64,000 nucleotides of DNA from Candidatus Bathyarchaeota archaeon (lineage in GTDB: Archaea; Thermoproteota; Bathyarchaeia; TCS64). The translations under genes and the position numbers were made by a program. The DNA lies in assembly GCA_026014875.1 (NCBI GenBank), contig JAOZHO010000005.1:1-64000 (forward strand), written 5' to 3'. A model generated the notes under the pieces. That model was not told where the DNA came from, ran no database searches, and saw only the letters and a program-made list of their open reading frames with translations. Below, piece after piece: positions 17,262 to 60,636 of this stretch; the stretch's first letter is position 1; each line of letters begins with the position of its first letter.

Positions 17262-18548
17262 TTGAATGGTCAGGGAGGGGCGCTGGAGGACGGTTCGATA
17301 CGTTCCCTGATGAAGGGGAACGTCCTCGTTCTCACCGTGAGCCGGGTCATCTGGAGCGTCTCGATGTCTATCGTCTTCCCCTTCCTCTCCCTCTACATCA
17401 TAGAGCTCGGGGGTACCAAGCCCATCATCGGTATGGTGAGTGCCCTCGGCAGCATGTCGAGTATGCTACTCTTCCCCGTCGGGGGCTACCTAGCCGATAA
17501 GGTGGGTCGGGCAAAATTCGTGGGGGTCTCCACATTCCTTTTCGCCTCGAGCTTCCTGCTCTTCATATTCGCCCCGACCTGGCAGTGGCTCGCCGTAGGG
17601 GTCATGTTTCAGGAGATTACACTGTTCTACATGCCCGCCCTCAACGCGATCATGGCCGACTCGATCCCCGTGGGGGCCCGGGGCCGTATCCTGAGCCTCA
17701 CCATCGCGATTCCCGAGGCCGTCAGGATCATCGTCCCCTACGTCGGGGGTTTGCTCATCGCCACGTTCACCCTCCAGCCGGCGATGCGGATGGCGTACAC
17801 TTTCAGCCTCCTCACGGGGGCTTTCGTGGGGTTCCTGCGATACCGTTACCTCGAGGAGACCCTCGAGAACGGCGAGATTGACCGGAATATTCCCCGGATC
17901 TTCAAAGAGTCATACTCCAGCGCCCTCAAGTCCTTTGGCTGGGTCCTCTCGAACATGAGGGGCTACGCCCTCCTGGGGATCACGGTCACCCTGGTCGCGA
18001 GTATTGTCCAGCCCTTCTGGATCATCTACGCCTCGGAGGTGATCGGCCTCTCCCCCTACGAGTGGGGCCTCGTCCTCCTGGGCGGGGGGATCGTCAAGAC
18101 CGTGCTCAGCTTCATGATCGGCGGCCTGGTGGACAGGCTGGGCCCCAAGAGATGTATTCTCATATCCTTAGCGGTCACCATCCCCTCAGCCCTCCTCTTC
18201 ACCCGGTCGACGGGATTCTTCCAGACCGCCGCGATATACCTCGGTATGGTGGTGGGGAACGCCTTCCTCTGGATCGCCTCGTCGGTCCTCCTCGCTGACT
18301 CCATTCCCCGGAACATCCGGGGCCGGATCATGGCCGCCCTCGGCCAAGGGCTGGGAGTCGGCATCGGCGGAGGAGGATATACCCGGGGTTTCATCCTCTT
18401 TATCCCTTCGACTATCGGCGCATTCCTAGGGGGGTACATCTATGAATTCAACCCCGCGATGCCCTGGCTCATCCAGGCTGTGCTCCTCCTGCTAGGGATC
18501 GCTTTCACTGTCTTGTTTGTGAAGGAGCCGGATAAAGCGGAGATTTAA
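17262..18548 (+). CDS. Major facilitator superfamily transporter
   Basis: Membrane carrier with about 12 predicted helices in 428 residues. The MFS loop 2-3 signature appears as GGYLADKVGRAKFVG (about 72-86) and the repeat in the second half as GGLVDRLGPKRC (about 287-298). An amphipathic, charged central loop (about 200-225) separates the two six-helix halves. Start is TTG 17262; an out-of-frame ATG at 17266 is ignored. Met-17 (MKGNVLVLTVSRV) is an alternative start nearer the first helix. The stop overlaps the convergent response-regulator stop within TTTAAA. The substrate is not evident: drug or metabolite efflux is typical for such carriers. Confidence 0.85.
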   Translation: MNGQGGALEDGSIRSLMKGNVLVLTVSRVIWSVSMSIVFPFLSLYIIELGGTKPIIGMVSALGSMSSMLLFPVGGYLADKVGRAKFVGVSTFLFASSFLLFIFAPTWQWLAVGVMFQEITLFYMPALNAIMADSIPVGARGRILSLTIAIPEAVRIIVPYVGGLLIATFTLQPAMRMAYTFSLLTGAFVGFLRYRYLEETLENGEIDRNIPRIFKESYSSALKSFGWVLSNMRGYALLGITVTLVASIVQPFWIIYASEVIGLSPYEWGLVLLGGGIVKTVLSFMIGGLVDRLGPKRCILISLAVTIPSALLFTRSTGFFQTAAIYLGMVVGNAFLWIASSVLLADSIPRNIRGRIMAALGQGLGVGIGGGGYTRGFILFIPSTIGAFLGGYIYEFNPAMPWLIQAVLLLLGIAFTVLFVKEPDKAEI

Positions 18549-19306
18549 AGGTCTCCGCTGGATTGAGGCTTCGTTCCGGGGCTGGGGTTCTCGGGGGATC
18601 GCCATAGCATCTTGAAGAACTTGTTGAGGCTCCGGTATCCCTCGAAGATGATGTCTTCTATCTCCTCCAAGGGCACGTTCATGTCTAGGAGGGTCTCGGA
18701 GATCTCGTCAATCTGGCGCCTGAGGTTGTCGCTGACGTAGTGCCTGAGCTGTAGCCCCCACTGGATCTCCTCGGCCACCTGGTACGCCTTGACCTCGTCG
18801 GGCTCCTCGCTCCAGATCTGCTTCAAACCATCTTCGTATAGGATGATGACGCTCCTCCCCCTGACCTCTGTCTGGGGGTACTCCGGGAGGTTGACTGGCT
18901 CCAATGTGTCGTTCCGCGCTTTTTCGTGCTCCGCGATGGCTCTCCGGATCTCCTTGACCAGCCTGGGGAAGTGCTCGGGGTCGTGGTCCTTCCGCACGTA
19001 TGCGTCCACCCCGGCGTCTATTGCATCCAAGACCGTCTGCTCGCTTCCCCGCCCCGTGTAGAGGACGAAGGGGATGTCCTTGATCTCCTTGATGATTGCT
19101 GCGAGCTCCACGCCGTTGATTTCAGGCATCGCGTAGTCAGCAAGGATGCAGTCGTATGGCTTCTCATTGAGCCTCTGAAGGATATCCCCCGGGTCGGAGA
19201 TGGTGTCGACGACGAGGTCTTTGTCGTGCTCCTCGATGAAGAATTTGGTCAGCTCCAGCTGATCCGGCTCATCGTCCAGTGCCAATATATACAGTGGTTT
19301 GTGCAT
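18545..19306 (-). CDS. Response regulator: receiver domain plus unclassified C-terminal domain
   Basis: Two-component receiver of 253 residues. Residues about 5-125 form a REC domain: acidic pair LDDEP, phosphoacceptor Asp in ILADYAMPEINGVE (about 57), the conserved Thr in VLYTGRGSE and Lys in YVRKDHD. The C-terminal half is neither a DNA-binding nor an enzymatic output domain I know. It reads SVIILYEDGLKQIW, then VAEEIQWGLQLR, then VPLEEIEDIIFEGY, and matches the separate 116-residue protein at 25501-25851 segment by segment. It is divergent from the large histidine kinase, its likely partner, across an AT-rich 178-nt gap. Confidence 0.88.
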   Translation of the reverse strand: MHKPLYILALDDEPDQLELTKFFIEEHDKDLVVDTISDPGDILQRLNEKPYDCILADYAMPEINGVELAAIIKEIKDIPFVLYTGRGSEQTVLDAIDAGVDAYVRKDHDPEHFPRLVKEIRRAIAEHEKARNDTLEPVNLPEYPQTEVRGRSVIILYEDGLKQIWSEEPDEVKAYQVAEEIQWGLQLRHYVSDNLRRQIDEISETLLDMNVPLEEIEDIIFEGYRSLNKFFKMLWRSPENPSPGTKPQSSGDL

Positions 19307-19484: not shown

Positions 19485-22400
19485 ATGGTGGCATCCGGCG
19501 CTCAGCCAGTCAACTCGATGAGGGTTCTGCACATCGATGACAACCCCGATTATATGGCGATCACTAAGATGTATCTTGAATCCTTTGATCCCGAGATGGA
19601 GGTCGTCTCGTCCTGTTCCCCTGTTGATTCTCTGCCTCTGATCGAGAACATGGAGTTTGACTGCGTCCTCTGTGACTATCTGATGCCGGAGATGGATGGC
19701 ATCGAGCTCTGCAGGCGGATCAGGAGGACTAGCGATGTCCCTTTCATCATTCACACGGGCCAGGGCAGCGAGGAGGTGGCATCCATCGCGTTCGACGCTG
19801 GGGTCGACGACTACATACGGAAGGAGCCCAGGCAGAGCCATTACCAGGTGCTGGCGAAGAGGGTCCGGCAGGCGGTGGAGAAGCACTGGGTGGAAGGGCT
19901 CTACAGGAACGTGCTGGAGAACTGCAGAGACGGCGTCGTCATAATCAAGGGAACACGGATCGTCTATGCGAATCAAGCCATGGCCGACTTTGTGGGTGTA
20001 TCTGGTCCTGGAGAACTCCTGGGTACAGATGTATTGGATTTGGTTGTAGCGAGGGATCGAGGACGTCTCCAGTCACTTGCTTTAAGTCGTCAGCGAGGCG
20101 AATCTCAGCCCACTCATTATGAGATTACCTTCCAGCGACCAGACGGAGAACCCCGGGTGTTAGACATCTCCTCCTCCCTTATCAACTATAAGGGGAGGCC
20201 TGCATCTCTCGGAATAGTACGCGATGTCTCGGAAAAAGTCAGAGGTAGGGAAAGGCTCGCAGCCCTTCATAGTTGTACCATAGGGCTGGCGTCGGCTGAA
20301 TCAATAGAGGAGATCGCGATACAGACCCTGGATTCCATGGCGGAGGTCTTTGATTTCCGATGGGGTGACTTCTCCATCCTCGAAGCTGGGCGGCTCCTCC
20401 CGGTTCACTTCAAAGGCGTCACACATGAAGAATTCGAGATTTTAGGTCTCGACGGTCCCGGAGTCATTGCTAGGGCAGCCCGGACCGCCGAGTCCCAGCT
20501 GGTACTCGATACCCGGGTGGACGAAGACTACCTTTCCACCCTCATTGACGGTAATATTACTACACTTTCCGAGCTGGCTGTACCCATCAAGAGTAATGGC
20601 AACGTTATCGGAGTGATCAATCTGGAGAGCCCTGTGTTAGACGGGTTCAGCGGTGATGATCAGAAATTGCTGGAGATTTTCTCTCAATACGTCGCCTCCG
20701 CCGTTGTCAGGATAAGGAATGAAGGATTGCTGAAGGCTTCAGAGGAGAAATGCCGCAATATCCTGGAGTCTTCACTGGATGGCATCACCGTTACCAAGGA
20801 TACGAAGCTCATTTTCGTCAACCCGCGTTTCGCCGAGATGCTCGGGTACGATGATCCGTCGGAGCTCCTAGGTAGATCAAGCTGGGATTTGGTCGCTCCT
20901 GAATATCAGGTCGTCATCCAAGATAGAGGTAACAAACGAAGAGAAGGAGATCGCAGCACATTCCGATACGAATTGAACTTCGTCAGAAAAGACGGCTCCT
21001 CATTTTACGTCGAGGCGCAGACCTCAGCCATCGATTTCGAGGGGAATGCCGCAGTCCTCGGCATCCATCGGGAAATAAATGAGAGAATGCTTCTAAAGGA
21101 GGAGCTGCGGGCGAGCGAGGAGCGATACAAGTCCCTCTTTGCCCTGTCCCCCTTCGCAATCGTCATCTCCGACCTGAAAGGACGCATTACCGATGTAAAC
21201 GACACCGTTATGCGGATGACCGGGTTTACTAGGGACGAGCTCATCGGGAAGCACTTTTCGAGGCTCCCAATGTTAAGCAAACGCGAAATTCCGAGATACT
21301 TGAAGATCTTCAACTCTTTCATGGGCGGAAACCCCATCGGGCCTCTGGAGATTCCGGTCCAGAGTAGGGAGGGCACTACTGGCACACTTGAAATGCACGT
21401 AGGCTTTGTAGAGATGGAAGGCGAAAAGGTTGGCATCCAGGCGATCTTCAAAGACATAACCCTCCAGAAACAGACAGAGGAGGAGCTGCGGGCGAGCGAG
21501 GAGCGCTACAGGAGCCTGATTGAACTTGCCCCGGATGGAATCATGACTCTCAATCTGAAAGGTGAGGTAACATCCATCAACACAGCGTTCATGAGGTTGA
21601 CCGGCTACTCCAAAAACGAGATCGTGGGGCAGCATTTCTCGAAGCTGAAGACAGCAGCATCTCTAAAGGACATGCCAAAATACCTTAAAATGTTCGCCGC
21701 CATGTTGCGAGGAAGAACTCCCTCCCTCGTCGAATTCGATTACATACGAAAGGACGGCACATTTGGCCACGGTGAGGCGTTGAGTCAGATAGTGGAGGTC
21801 GAACCGGGGAAGAAGGAGGCGCTGGCAATTCTAAGAGATATCTCAGACAGAAAGCGCATGGAAGATGAGCTAAGAAATCATTCCGAGCGCCTAGAGGAGC
21901 TGGTATCTGAGAGGACATCGGAGCTAAGGGAGTCCGAGGAACGGTTCCGTAACGTCATCGACAACCTCCCGATGGGGGTCCACATGTACGAGATCGACGC
22001 CAACGGCGACCTCCGCTTCGTGGCAGTCAACCCCACCGCTGACAAGATGGGTACCATACCCAGCAGCTCATACATCGGCAAGACCCTCGATGAAGTATTC
22101 CCGTATGTTGATGAAGAAATTATAGAGATGTTCAAAGAGATCGCCGAGAAAGGAGGCTTCTGGCACGAAGAAGACATACGCTACGAAGACGACCGAATCA
22201 TAGATGCTTCAGATAATTATGTATTCCAGACGGCCCCAGGCGAGATGGCCTCCGTATTCAGGGACGTAACGGAACAGAAGCGGATGGAGGAGGCATTGAA
22301 GGCAAGTGAGGCAAAGTACCGTTCTTTTCTCGAGGAGGGATTGGATGGCGTTGTGGTCACTTGGAAAGGGGAATATCTCTACGTCAATCAGAGATACACC

Positions 22401-23336
22401 GAGATGCTGGGATACTCCGACTCCTCTGAGCTGCTCGGGAGAAACACCCGCGAAGTGATTGACCCAAGAGACGCTGAGCGTTTGAATGCCATAATCGAGC
22501 AGAGACAGAGCGGGGACATGCAACGGCTCACCTATGAGGTGAGGTCCCTGAAGAAGGACGGCTCCTCGATCTGGGTGGGGGGCGCCTCATCGGGCATCGA
22601 GTTCGAAGGAAAACCGGCGGTGATCACCTATGCCCGGGACATCACAGAGCGGAAACAGATGGAGGAGGACCTCCTGTCAGCTGAAAGGCTAGCGACAGCA
22701 GGTAGAGTAGCTGCGATGATGGGCCACGACCTCCACGGCCCCCTCGTAGTGGTCAGGAACGCCGTAAATTTAGCGAGAGGAAACCCTGAGAAGACCGACA
22801 GGATGCTAGACATGATCGAGAGAAACGCCGGACAGGCAATGGATATCCTTGAGGAACTACGGACCAGAACGAAGGACGAACCTGTTTCCCTAAAGCCCGT
22901 GGAGATCGAAAAACTCCTGAGAAAAATTACGGAAGACCTCATCCTACCCACCGGAGTGGGGCTTCGCCTAGAGATCGATGAAGACCTCCAGGAGATCGCC
23001 TTGGACGAAACCAAGACGGTGAGAGCCCTGAAAAACATAATACAGAACGCCATAGACGCGATGCCCGACGGAGGCGTGCTCAAGATTGAAGCGACAAGCA
23101 AGGGCAACCAAGTTGTCATCAGCGTATCCGACACAGGCACCGGGATCCCCGACGAGGCCCGGAGAAACCTGTTCAAACCCTTCTACACGACGAAGCCAAA
23201 AGGAATGGGCTTGGGCCTCGCCTCCACCAAACGAATGGTGGCTGTCCAAGGGGGAACGATCTCCTTCGAAACCAGAGACGGTAAGGGCTCGACCTTCACG
23301 ATAACCCTACCCCTGAAGAAGAACCCGGAGCAATAA
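19485..23336 (+). CDS. Hybrid sensor histidine kinase: REC-PAS-GAF-PAS(x5)-HisKA-HATPase
   Basis: Soluble 1283-residue sensor kinase without membrane segments. Domains by eye: REC 8-125 (HIDDNPD, Asp in CVLCDYLMPEMDG, Lys in YIRKEP); PAS 140-255; GAF 262-412; PAS 420-535, 545-660, 668-790, 820-935 and 945-1055, each followed by PAC-type DIS/DIT plus coiled linkers such as KRMEDELR; then HisKA and ATPase. The H box reads MMGHDLHGPL (about 1078), N box NIIQNAIDAMPDGG, G1 DTGTGIPDE, and a short G2 GMGLGLAS. Two PAS-linker repeats share the nucleotide-level sequence around GAGGAGCTGCGGGCGAGCG. The N-terminal REC and divergent regulator point to a phosphorelay. The ligand is unknown; a redox or oxygen cue is typical of PAS/GAF arrays. 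Confidence 0.92.
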   Translation: MVASGAQPVNSMRVLHIDDNPDYMAITKMYLESFDPEMEVVSSCSPVDSLPLIENMEFDCVLCDYLMPEMDGIELCRRIRRTSDVPFIIHTGQGSEEVASIAFDAGVDDYIRKEPRQSHYQVLAKRVRQAVEKHWVEGLYRNVLENCRDGVVIIKGTRIVYANQAMADFVGVSGPGELLGTDVLDLVVARDRGRLQSLALSRQRGESQPTHYEITFQRPDGEPRVLDISSSLINYKGRPASLGIVRDVSEKVRGRERLAALHSCTIGLASAESIEEIAIQTLDSMAEVFDFRWGDFSILEAGRLLPVHFKGVTHEEFEILGLDGPGVIARAARTAESQLVLDTRVDEDYLSTLIDGNITTLSELAVPIKSNGNVIGVINLESPVLDGFSGDDQKLLEIFSQYVASAVVRIRNEGLLKASEEKCRNILESSLDGITVTKDTKLIFVNPRFAEMLGYDDPSELLGRSSWDLVAPEYQVVIQDRGNKRREGDRSTFRYELNFVRKDGSSFYVEAQTSAIDFEGNAAVLGIHREINERMLLKEELRASEERYKSLFALSPFAIVISDLKGRITDVNDTVMRMTGFTRDELIGKHFSRLPMLSKREIPRYLKIFNSFMGGNPIGPLEIPVQSREGTTGTLEMHVGFVEMEGEKVGIQAIFKDITLQKQTEEELRASEERYRSLIELAPDGIMTLNLKGEVTSINTAFMRLTGYSKNEIVGQHFSKLKTAASLKDMPKYLKMFAAMLRGRTPSLVEFDYIRKDGTFGHGEALSQIVEVEPGKKEALAILRDISDRKRMEDELRNHSERLEELVSERTSELRESEERFRNVIDNLPMGVHMYEIDANGDLRFVAVNPTADKMGTIPSSSYIGKTLDEVFPYVDEEIIEMFKEIAEKGGFWHEEDIRYEDDRIIDASDNYVFQTAPGEMASVFRDVTEQKRMEEALKASEAKYRSFLEEGLDGVVVTWKGEYLYVNQRYTEMLGYSDSSELLGRNTREVIDPRDAERLNAIIEQRQSGDMQRLTYEVRSLKKDGSSIWVGGASSGIEFEGKPAVITYARDITERKQMEEDLLSAERLATAGRVAAMMGHDLHGPLVVVRNAVNLARGNPEKTDRMLDMIERNAGQAMDILEELRTRTKDEPVSLKPVEIEKLLRKITEDLILPTGVGLRLEIDEDLQEIALDETKTVRALKNIIQNAIDAMPDGGVLKIEATSKGNQVVISVSDTGTGIPDEARRNLFKPFYTTKPKGMGLGLASTKRMVAVQGGTISFETRDGKGSTFTITLPLKKNPEQ

Positions 23337-23460
23337 GGGGTCCGCTTTCCTCTACCCGACTCCCCTGTCGATCCCGCTGCTGCCTGAATCAACCCTGACG
23401 TGATCCGAAAAACCTATTATCTGGCCCCCCGTTCAAATGAGAAGACTGGAGACACCCGAG

Positions 23461-23655
23461 ATGCCCAAGGAGATCTACGACGCCGAGGAGTTCATCGCCC
23501 TAGCCGAGGATGCCACCAAGTGCATCGTCAAGAAGAACGACGGCAAGACAAAGCTTAAACTCCGCACCAACCGGTACCTCTACACCATCGTCCTGGATCC
23601 CGATGAGGCCTCCGATGTTCTGGGGAAGATCAAGTGCCCCACCGAAGAGATCTAA
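23461..23655 (+). CDS. rpl38e: Ribosomal protein L38e family
   Basis: Large-subunit ribosomal protein of the eukaryote/archaea L38e family, 64 residues from ATG 23461: MPKEIYDAEEF, a helix with AEDATKCIVKKN, a basic strand KLKLRTNRYLYTIVL and the final IKCPTEEI. This strand-helix arrangement and length match L38e, known from TACK archaea and missing in most Euryarchaeota. The open frame reaches back to 23437, but GGAG at 23448-23451 with 9-nt spacing and family alignment favour 23461. A TATA-like CCTATTATC at 23413-23421 lies upstream. It is a single gene between the kinase and the RDD protein. Confidence 0.9.
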   Translation: MPKEIYDAEEFIALAEDATKCIVKKNDGKTKLKLRTNRYLYTIVLDPDEASDVLGKIKCPTEEI

Positions 23656-25028: not shown

Positions 25029-25418
25029 ATGGCGGGGTTCAAATTCGATCACGAGAAAAAGGGGCTCGGTAAGACCCTCAAGGAGTACGAGGAGGTCGCC
25101 CTCAGTTACGTATGGTCCATGGGCGAGGAAGGCGTGGGCTCGGCGAAGACCTGGGCGAATACAAACGAGAGGCTGAAGCACGGTAAGACCCTCTCCAGAG
25201 CCTCCATGATATTCTTCCTGAACCGGATGGTGGACCAGAGAGTCCTGAGCTACAGGACCGCGACGGGGAAAGGCGGACACCACAGGGTGTACTATTCGAT
25301 GATGGACGAGAAAACCTACAAGAAACATATCCTGAAGACGATTGTCGAGAGCCTCATGAGGGACTTCCCCGACGAGACGAAGAAAGCCCTTGAGGAACTA
25401 CAACTCCAGCCGGCATGA
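25029..25418 (+). CDS. Winged-helix transcriptional regulator (BlaI/CopY-like)
   Basis: Probable DNA-binding protein of 129 residues. The part around residues 20-90 reads as a winged helix: LKEYEEVALSYVWSMGEEGVGSAKTW in the genome, a recognition helix near TLSRASMIFFLNRMVDQRVL, then a basic beta wing SYRTATGKGGHHRVYYSMM. This resembles the BlaI/MecI/CopY group by order and wing sequence. The C-terminal helix (KTYKKHILKTIVESLMRDFP) would dimerise. A TTAAATTTC box at 25000-25008 predicts a leaderless transcript beginning at the ATG. The regulated target is unknown; no binding site repeat was seen at its own promoter. Confidence 0.7.
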   Translation: MAGFKFDHEKKGLGKTLKEYEEVALSYVWSMGEEGVGSAKTWANTNERLKHGKTLSRASMIFFLNRMVDQRVLSYRTATGKGGHHRVYYSMMDEKTYKKHILKTIVESLMRDFPDETKKALEELQLQPA

Positions 25419-25500: not shown

Positions 25501-25851
25501 ATGAATAACCGTAAAGCCAACTCCGATGAGGTGCCCGACTATTTCAAAGCCTTCGCGGAGGGATGCCTAGTCATTTTTATTGACGAGAAGGGGAAACGGA
25601 ACGTTTGGGGACGAGAAGCCGATCCCCTGACCGCCCAGGAGACCGCAGAAGAGATCGAACAAGGCTTAACGTCTATCCGCCACGCCCAGAGGCGGCTAGT
25701 CGAGGCTCTTGAAACCACGATCCGCGAACTAGGAGATGTGGATGTTCCCGAGGGGCTCCTGGTCGAGTCCATATGCGAGGCATACTGGAGCATCCAGATG
25801 AAGTTGCCTGGCCTAGTGGAACGTCTAGTAGAGGCCGATCGTACTAGATGA
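25501..25851 (+). CDS. Stand-alone copy of the response-regulator C-terminal domain
   Basis: A 116-residue protein of no named family known to me. It parallels the C-terminal half of the response regulator at 18545-19306: CLVIFIDEKGKRNVW matches VIILYEDGLKQIW, TAEEIEQGL matches VAEEIQWGL, and DVDVPEGLLVESICEAYWS matches MNVPLEEIEDIIFEGYRS, with similar spacing. The first third looks like two strands, the rest helical. The start ATG follows the TATA-like AATAAAACCC near 25463 by about 35 nt. As a lone output domain it may compete with or bind the regulator or the same partner. It lies just upstream of tRNA-Gly. Confidence 0.65.
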   Translation: MNNRKANSDEVPDYFKAFAEGCLVIFIDEKGKRNVWGREADPLTAQETAEEIEQGLTSIRHAQRRLVEALETTIRELGDVDVPEGLLVESICEAYWSIQMKLPGLVERLVEADRTR

Positions 25852-25972: not shown

Positions 25973-26048
25973 GCGGCCGTAGTCCAGCCTGGCAAGATTT
26001 CTGGTTGCCATCCAGACGACCCGGGTTCGAATCCCGGCGGCCGCACCA
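25973..26048 (+). tRNA. tRNA-Gly (GCC), CCA encoded
   Basis: The cloverleaf folds without an intron. The acceptor GCGGCCG pairs fully with CGGCCGC (26038-26044); the D arm starts GTCC with a GG in the loop; the anticodon stem TCTGG/CCAGA encloses the loop TTGCCAT, anticodon GCC; the T arm is CCGGG-TTCGAAT-CCCGG; the discriminator is A. CCA is genome-encoded at 26046-26048. The antisense frame yields the familiar false protein seen at tRNA genes. Confidence 0.96.
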
Positions 26049-58401: not shown

Positions 58402-58534
58402 TGGTGGGGCCGGAAGGATTTGAACCCTCGACATTTGGGTATCCCGCTCCAAAAACTCGTCATCCCCTCACGGGTCAGCATCCAACTATATGATTTCTGG
58501 AGCCCAACGTCATTCCAGGCTAGACCACGGCCCC
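58402..58534 (-). tRNA. tRNA-Trp (CCA) with a 56-nt intron, 3' CCA encoded
   Basis: Minus strand: acceptor GGGGCCG pairs with CGGCCCC; D arm GTCT...TGAC; anticodon stem TTGGG pairs with CCCAA; T arm GAGGG-TTCAAAT-CCTTC; discriminator A; CCA encoded at 58404-58402. The anticodon loop CTCCAGA gives CCA, but 56 nt separate position 37 from position 38. Intron bases UUUUUGGAG can pair with CUCCAGAAA around the anticodon, as in archaeal pre-tRNAs before cutting by the splicing endonuclease. The exact cut sites are not certain. A TATA-like GATAAATATT lies at 58565-58574. Confidence 0.93.
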
Positions 58535-60505: not shown

Positions 60506-60636
60506 TGGGTAACCGGCCAAAGGGCGTGGGTCCCACCCGAACCCATTCCGAACTCGGAAGTTAAACCACGCTCCGTTTGCGGCGGTAGTGATGTCTTCGG
60601 CCTCGCAAAACCGTGAAAGCTGGTGGCCCACCCATT
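60506..60636 (+). rRNA. rrf: 5S ribosomal RNA
   Basis: About 131 nt. Terminal helix: TGGGTAACCGGCC at the 5' end pairs with GGTGGCCCACCCA at the 3' end. The 5S core CCCACCCGAACCCATTCCGAACTCGGAAG (written here as position 60550-60580) contains the universal GAACTCGGAAGTTAAA loop B/C sequence; loop E/helix IV region GCGGCGGTAGTGATG follows. Not next to 16S or 23S, as in several archaea with unlinked 5S. It has its own TATA-like box and ends before the DUF1512 gene. Ends are estimated to 2-3 nt. Confidence 0.95.

Follow-up and report, generated by a model that had tools for sequence, protein, structure and literature searches.

An output domain shared by a response regulator and a stand-alone protein in one Bathyarchaeia family

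The locus and its genes

We analyzed a stretch of 64,000 nucleotides (the window) from the genome of a Candidatus Bathyarchaeota archaeon (GCA_026014875.1, contig JAOZHO010000005.1; genome G000 below). Within it, a response regulator gene and a histidine kinase gene are followed at a short distance by a winged-helix (wHTH) gene, a gene for a protein of 116 amino acids (aa) and a tRNA gene:

18545..19306, minus strand: response regulator, 253 aa, receiver plus new output domain (translation; PF00072 E 2.8e-20, aa 7-113)
18965..19288, minus strand: receiver (REC) domain (PF00072), with the acidic pair, phospho-Asp, Thr and Lys present
18602..18889, minus strand: new domain, receiver-fused copy, aa ~140-235 (predicted three strands, 38-residue helix, second helix)
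19485..23336, plus strand: hybrid histidine kinase, REC-PAS-GAF-multiple PAS-HisKA-HATPase by Pfam; presumed phosphodonor, linked to the regulator by position only
25029..25418, plus strand: BlaI/Penicillinase_R-like wHTH protein, candidate partner (PF03965 E 9e-5)
25501..25851, plus strand: stand-alone copy of the new domain, 116 aa (homology; AlphaFold2 pLDDT 80)
25973..26048, plus strand: tRNA-Gly(GCC), bordering the wHTH/lone-domain locus (synteny anchor)

The response regulator passes the test for a receiver fold at the PF00072 score given above, with a complete set of catalytic residues, namely the DD pair, the Asp of LADY, the Thr of LYTG and the Lys of VRKD. The regulator and kinase genes diverge across an AT-rich gap of 178 bp, and this arrangement is preserved in the sister genome G011, which carries the closest named contig to the window (G011:C26, JADHWM010000019.1, Candidatus Bathyarchaeota archaeon BS750m-G27). 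The lone copy adjoins the BlaI-like wHTH gene, not the kinase: a gap of 82 bp separates it from the wHTH stop codon, tRNA-Gly follows it, and, given this gap, it may have its own promoter. The wHTH protein passes the PF03965 gathering test (23.2 bits against a cut-off of 22.6), and its homolog at the same locus in G008 scores 24.9 bits.

Several other features of the window are worth recording. The regulator adjoins an MFS transporter gene (17262-18548, plus strand), of which just an identical 17-residue piece is left in G011, and the kinase is immediately followed by a gene for ribosomal protein L38e (23437-23655, plus strand; 72 aa; PF01781 E 5e-12), a sequence related to which persists in the congener G013. 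A 5S rRNA gene lies at 60509-60628 (plus strand), with no other rRNA detected within the window, and an Rfam tRNA match at 58405-58534 (minus strand; 48 bits, 130-base span), which ARAGORN misses, is perhaps an intron-containing tRNA.

Homology of the fused and stand-alone copies

A sequence-only reading of this DNA had proposed that the regulator and the 116-aa protein share a domain, marked by three motifs. All three were found, in the same order, in the receiver protein and the lone protein, respectively: VIILYEDGLKQIW and VIFIDEKGKRNVW, AEEIQWGL and AEEIEQGL, and VPLEEIEDIIFEGYRS and VPEGLLVESICEAYWS. Over its last ~100 residues, the receiver protein is homologous to the lone protein, and BLASTP of the pair aligns the two over 88 ungapped positions with 26 identities (30%; E = 4e-10). 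The Smith-Waterman score of the pair is 106, against a mean of 28 for shuffled sequences (z = 15.4), and none of 5000 shuffles scored as high. When the lone protein was searched against its whole own genome, only the protein itself and the receiver protein were recovered (E = 2.2e-7), that is, the genome holds two copies. Furthermore, a profile built from five receiver-fused copies recovered seven lone-class copies (E = 3e-9 to 2e-26; this set includes the copy in G009, which retains a receiver remnant), and the reverse profile recovered the fused copies (E = 1e-13 to 3e-28), whereas the best unrelated match among 819 open reading frames of the window had an E value of 0.17. Taken together, the ungapped pair, the shuffle test, the own-genome search and the reciprocal profiles demonstrate real homology, and the proposed shared domain is genuine.

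That reading had also described the domain as unfamiliar, and this description holds, with no convincing match found in Pfam, NCBIfam, PDB sequences or Foldseek. Searches against Pfam, NCBIfam, PHROGs and PDB sequences yielded sub-threshold matches, or matches to coiled coils and de novo designed helical proteins. Foldseek searches with the lone domain returned nothing significant against the PDB (best E 0.31, YbaB) or viral predicted folds (best E 0.09), and a search with the full regulator listed receiver-containing proteins; a scan of a viral collection likewise found no relative of the domain. None of 11 members of the new family matched the Pfam models of HalOD1, HalOD2, MetOD1, MetOD2, NitrOD1, NitrOD2, NitrOD5 or TackOD1 at E 0.5.

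Some common assignments were considered and rejected. A helix-turn-helix (HTH), ribbon-helix-helix (RHH) or similar DNA-binding output domain finds no Pfam profile and no significant PDB fold, and the domain is acidic; the Pfam scan of the domain also gave no zinc-binding signature. An Hpt phosphotransfer domain was discarded for lack of an invariant histidine column, and a PAS domain for lack of a Pfam PAS match and of strands after the helices in the predicted topology. PAS ancestry was considered as well, the nearest relatives of the receiver half being REC-PAS proteins and the P0001-to-kinase alignments extending beyond the receiver into the following region; it was rejected because the domain alone has no match in that region (tblastn against six REC-protein loci). 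A match of 49 residues in Acinetobacter (E 5e-4 among candidates only) was taken as chance.

Structure prediction with AlphaFold2 assigned the same topology to both copies. In the model of the lone protein (pLDDT 80), three strands lead into a helix of 38 residues, a second helix and a short third one; in that of the receiver protein (mean pLDDT 82 over the whole protein), the domain has the same elements in the same order up to the second helix. The underlying alignments, drawn from window sequences and related loci, were shallow (7-8 rows), and the two runs have most of these rows in common, so they are not fully independent. All 12 copies of the domain identified in this work (see below) are acidic (pI 4.1-4.9), with D+E clearly exceeding K+R, and their alignments contain neither an invariant histidine column nor a catalytic-looking residue cluster. 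This combination favors a binding module, and we infer that the domain probably mediates protein-protein contacts.

Distribution and constraint within one family

A profile search of 257 genomes of the class identified 12 copies of the domain in 9 genomes, all belonging to one Bathyarchaeia family of 27 genomes. Among 398 sampled genomes of the phylum, the domain was found in its own genome only, and a scan of ~85,000 species genomes for a sequence pattern produced four Bathyarchaeota loci and one probable chance match. With 12 recognizable copies plus one pseudogene (in G013) in a single family, the domain is more than a two-protein curiosity.

The copies come in several architectures. An intact receiver precedes the domain in G000 and G011, and a degenerate one, which has lost the acidic pair and the phospho-Asp, in G021, G022:C104 and G024; in G009, the domain is preceded only by what appears to be the last receiver helix. 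The lone form is found in G000, G011, G008 (truncated), G012, G022:C34 and G026. In G024, G022 and G021 (loci L036, L038 and L039), the degenerate-receiver gene belongs to a conserved block, in which it follows a gene for a Na+/H+ exchanger and one for a ~177-aa protein with weak similarity to rubrerythrin (E 0.016). The degenerate-receiver fusions imply that phosphorylation is not always the input to the domain.

Fused and lone copies coexist in the sister genomes G000 and G011, which belong to one genus, and, as an independent unlinked pair, in G022, so their co-occurrence amounts to nearly a single observation; G012 and G026 have lone copies without any fused copy. The domain tree is essentially unresolved, and the number and direction of fusions therefore cannot be told from it.

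The order wHTH-domain-tRNA is common to G000, G011 and G008, and the wHTH locus occurs without the domain in G012 and G007. The wHTH family is paralogous, with 1-7 matches per genome in all 27 family genomes and ~7 paralogs in the window genome. In an independent case, the lone copy of G022:C34 is convergent with a neighboring gene that belongs, as a distant member, to this wHTH family (E 2.2e-7). Thus, adjacency to such a gene is seen at 2 of ~7 independent domain loci, which would arise by chance with a probability of ~5e-4 in a comparison made post hoc. The lone copy of G026 overlaps a gene for transcription factor B (TFB), and a weak RHH-like gene lies close by.

G000 and G011 both have an intact lone domain, 87% identical between them and with a dN/dS of 0.28-0.39, near that of its wHTH neighbor; the values for the regulator and a neighboring CPSF-like gene are 0.19 and 0.14, respectively. 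These ratios indicate that the lone copy is constrained by purifying selection rather than drifting between the two genomes. The congener G013, with an estimated completeness of 95%, offers a case of loss. At its syntenic locus, the kinase, regulator and wHTH genes are gone, and what is left between the CPSF-like gene and tRNA-Gly is an RDD remnant together with a fragment of the lone domain that contains a stop; a search of this genome for receiver domains (E 1e-5) found nothing. Of the 27 genomes, the 9 with the domain all encode three or more receivers, and intact copies are absent from all 8 that encode at most two (p = 0.02 with relatedness ignored). This pattern and the loss in G013 tie the domain to two-component signaling in general, and weakly to this particular kinase.

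Possible output mechanism and comparison with known systems

We propose, with a probability of about one half, that the domain is a lineage-specific signaling module, through which the fused copy would contact a partner under the control of phosphorylation, while the lone copy would act in trans. In this scheme, the divergent kinase would most likely phosphorylate the receiver of the response regulator, a pairing that we infer from gene position, and phosphorylation would change how the module is exposed or dimerized and hence how firmly it holds a partner protein. Presenting the same binding surface minus the receiver, the lone copy would either pair with the fused copy via the helical hairpin or compete with it for a common partner. 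The best single candidate for that partner is the wHTH regulator encoded beside the lone copy, although this assignment is speculative. A protein-protein output has precedent in archaeal output domains that occur both fused and alone (PMC5847659). Counting against the mechanism are the wHTH blocks that lack the domain (G012 and G007), the ~7 wHTH paralogs, the 82-bp gap and the fusions to pseudo-receivers.

The sequence-only reading had assigned the lone copy to the route of the divergent kinase, as an adaptor or antagonist. This role is plausible but unproven. The case for a route shared by the fused and lone copies is circumstantial: they co-occur in the two sister genomes and are gone or dead in G013, in which no receiver was detected. 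Set against the kinase-route idea are the wHTH gene as the neighbor of the lone copy, the lone-only genomes G012 and G026 and the unphosphorylatable receivers of G021, G022 and G024.

The same helical hairpin could instead serve dimerization: as a homodimeric four-helix bundle, it would determine the dimer state of the regulator, and the lone copy would poison or tune the regulator by forming a heterodimer with it. The predicted 38-residue helix and second helix would suit this role, as would a lone protein that consists of the module and nothing else, and amphipathic helices are in keeping with the weak matches to designed helical repeats and coiled coils. However, heterodimerization cannot be the general role of the lone copies, since G012 and G026 have them without a fused one, and cross-pairing of the window copies is uncertain at 30% identity, so we regard this explanation as somewhat unlikely. 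Direct binding to DNA or the basal transcription machinery would make the regulator a transcription regulator of the conventional type, with the lone copy serving as a small co-regulator. This reading is suggested by the company that the lone copies keep, that is, the BlaI-like wHTH genes in G000, G011 and G008, the distant wHTH relative in G022:C34 and, in G026, the overlapping TFB gene with the weak RHH-like gene near it. The excess of acidic over basic residues in every copy and the failure of Pfam to detect an HTH, RHH or zinc-binding signature, and of Foldseek to find a DNA-binding fold at a significant E value, make this improbable.

It is also quite unlikely that the lone copy is a roleless, decaying by-product of fusion or duplication. 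Such decay would account for the truncated copy in G008, the stop-containing remnant in G013, the single receiver helix ahead of the domain in G009 and the missing domain at the same locus in G012 and G007, but not for the copies in G000 and G011, which are intact and 87% identical with a dN/dS of about 0.3, near that of the wHTH neighbor, or for the intact lone copies at unrelated loci in G012, G026 and G022. A more specific possibility, to which we assign a low probability, is that the domain is a portable coupler linking active or degenerate receivers to separate transcription regulators, so that the regulator and lone copy would compete for the BlaI-like wHTH protein and the lone copy of G026 would act on TFB. 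If so, a two-component signal would reach archaeal promoters without a DNA-binding response regulator.

The preferred reading, that of a module for protein contacts, bears on archaeal two-component output, which is largely an open question. Most archaeal response regulators have no recognizable effector (PMC5847659, PMC11784639), and Galperin et al. (2018), who described 14 archaeal REC-associated domains under tentative lineage names, several of them also found alone, made the case for protein-protein contact as the main form of archaeal output (PMC5847659). In M. acetivorans, one hybrid kinase feeds several regulators, and MetOD1 is still without a known function (PMC11784639). Although rare, the domain described here is a new, bounded family that comes in fused, pseudo-receiver and lone forms. 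With structures predicted for two copies and a candidate partner named, the protein-contact hypothesis can be tested with three small proteins.

Among known domains, Hpt and DHp also place a helical hairpin within a two-component protein, but the alignment of the new domain has no invariant histidine. HalX (PF08663) is C-terminal to REC, helical, possibly a coiled coil and sometimes alone (PMC5847659); unlike the new domain, in which three strands precede the helices, it is predicted to consist of three helices, and there is no Pfam match. TackOD1 (PF18551) is similarly REC-associated or alone, with Bathyarchaeota among the TACK archaea in which it has been reported (PMC5847659), but spans ~200 aa with 11 conserved cysteines, compared with ~100 aa and no conserved cysteine pattern here. 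HalOD1 (PF18545) is, like the new domain, a small archaeal domain of narrow range and without known function, which occurs in REC fusions as well as in short proteins of its own (PMC5847659). It differs in its abundance (>2,000 copies, in halobacteria and haloviruses, against 12 known copies, in Bathyarchaeia only) and its predicted metal-binding motif, and its Pfam model shows no sequence match. MetOD1 (PF18546) and NitrOD1/NitrOD5 (PF18549, PF11537) each occur stand-alone and REC-fused within one archaeal lineage (PMC5847659, Table 3), but in another lineage and with no Pfam match to the domain. Occurring both fused to REC and alone, and confined to one lineage, the new domain falls within the definition of the lineage-specific archaeal REC-associated output domains, and, as none of its 11 copies searched matches a Pfam model of the named domains of that class, it represents a new family of an already known kind.
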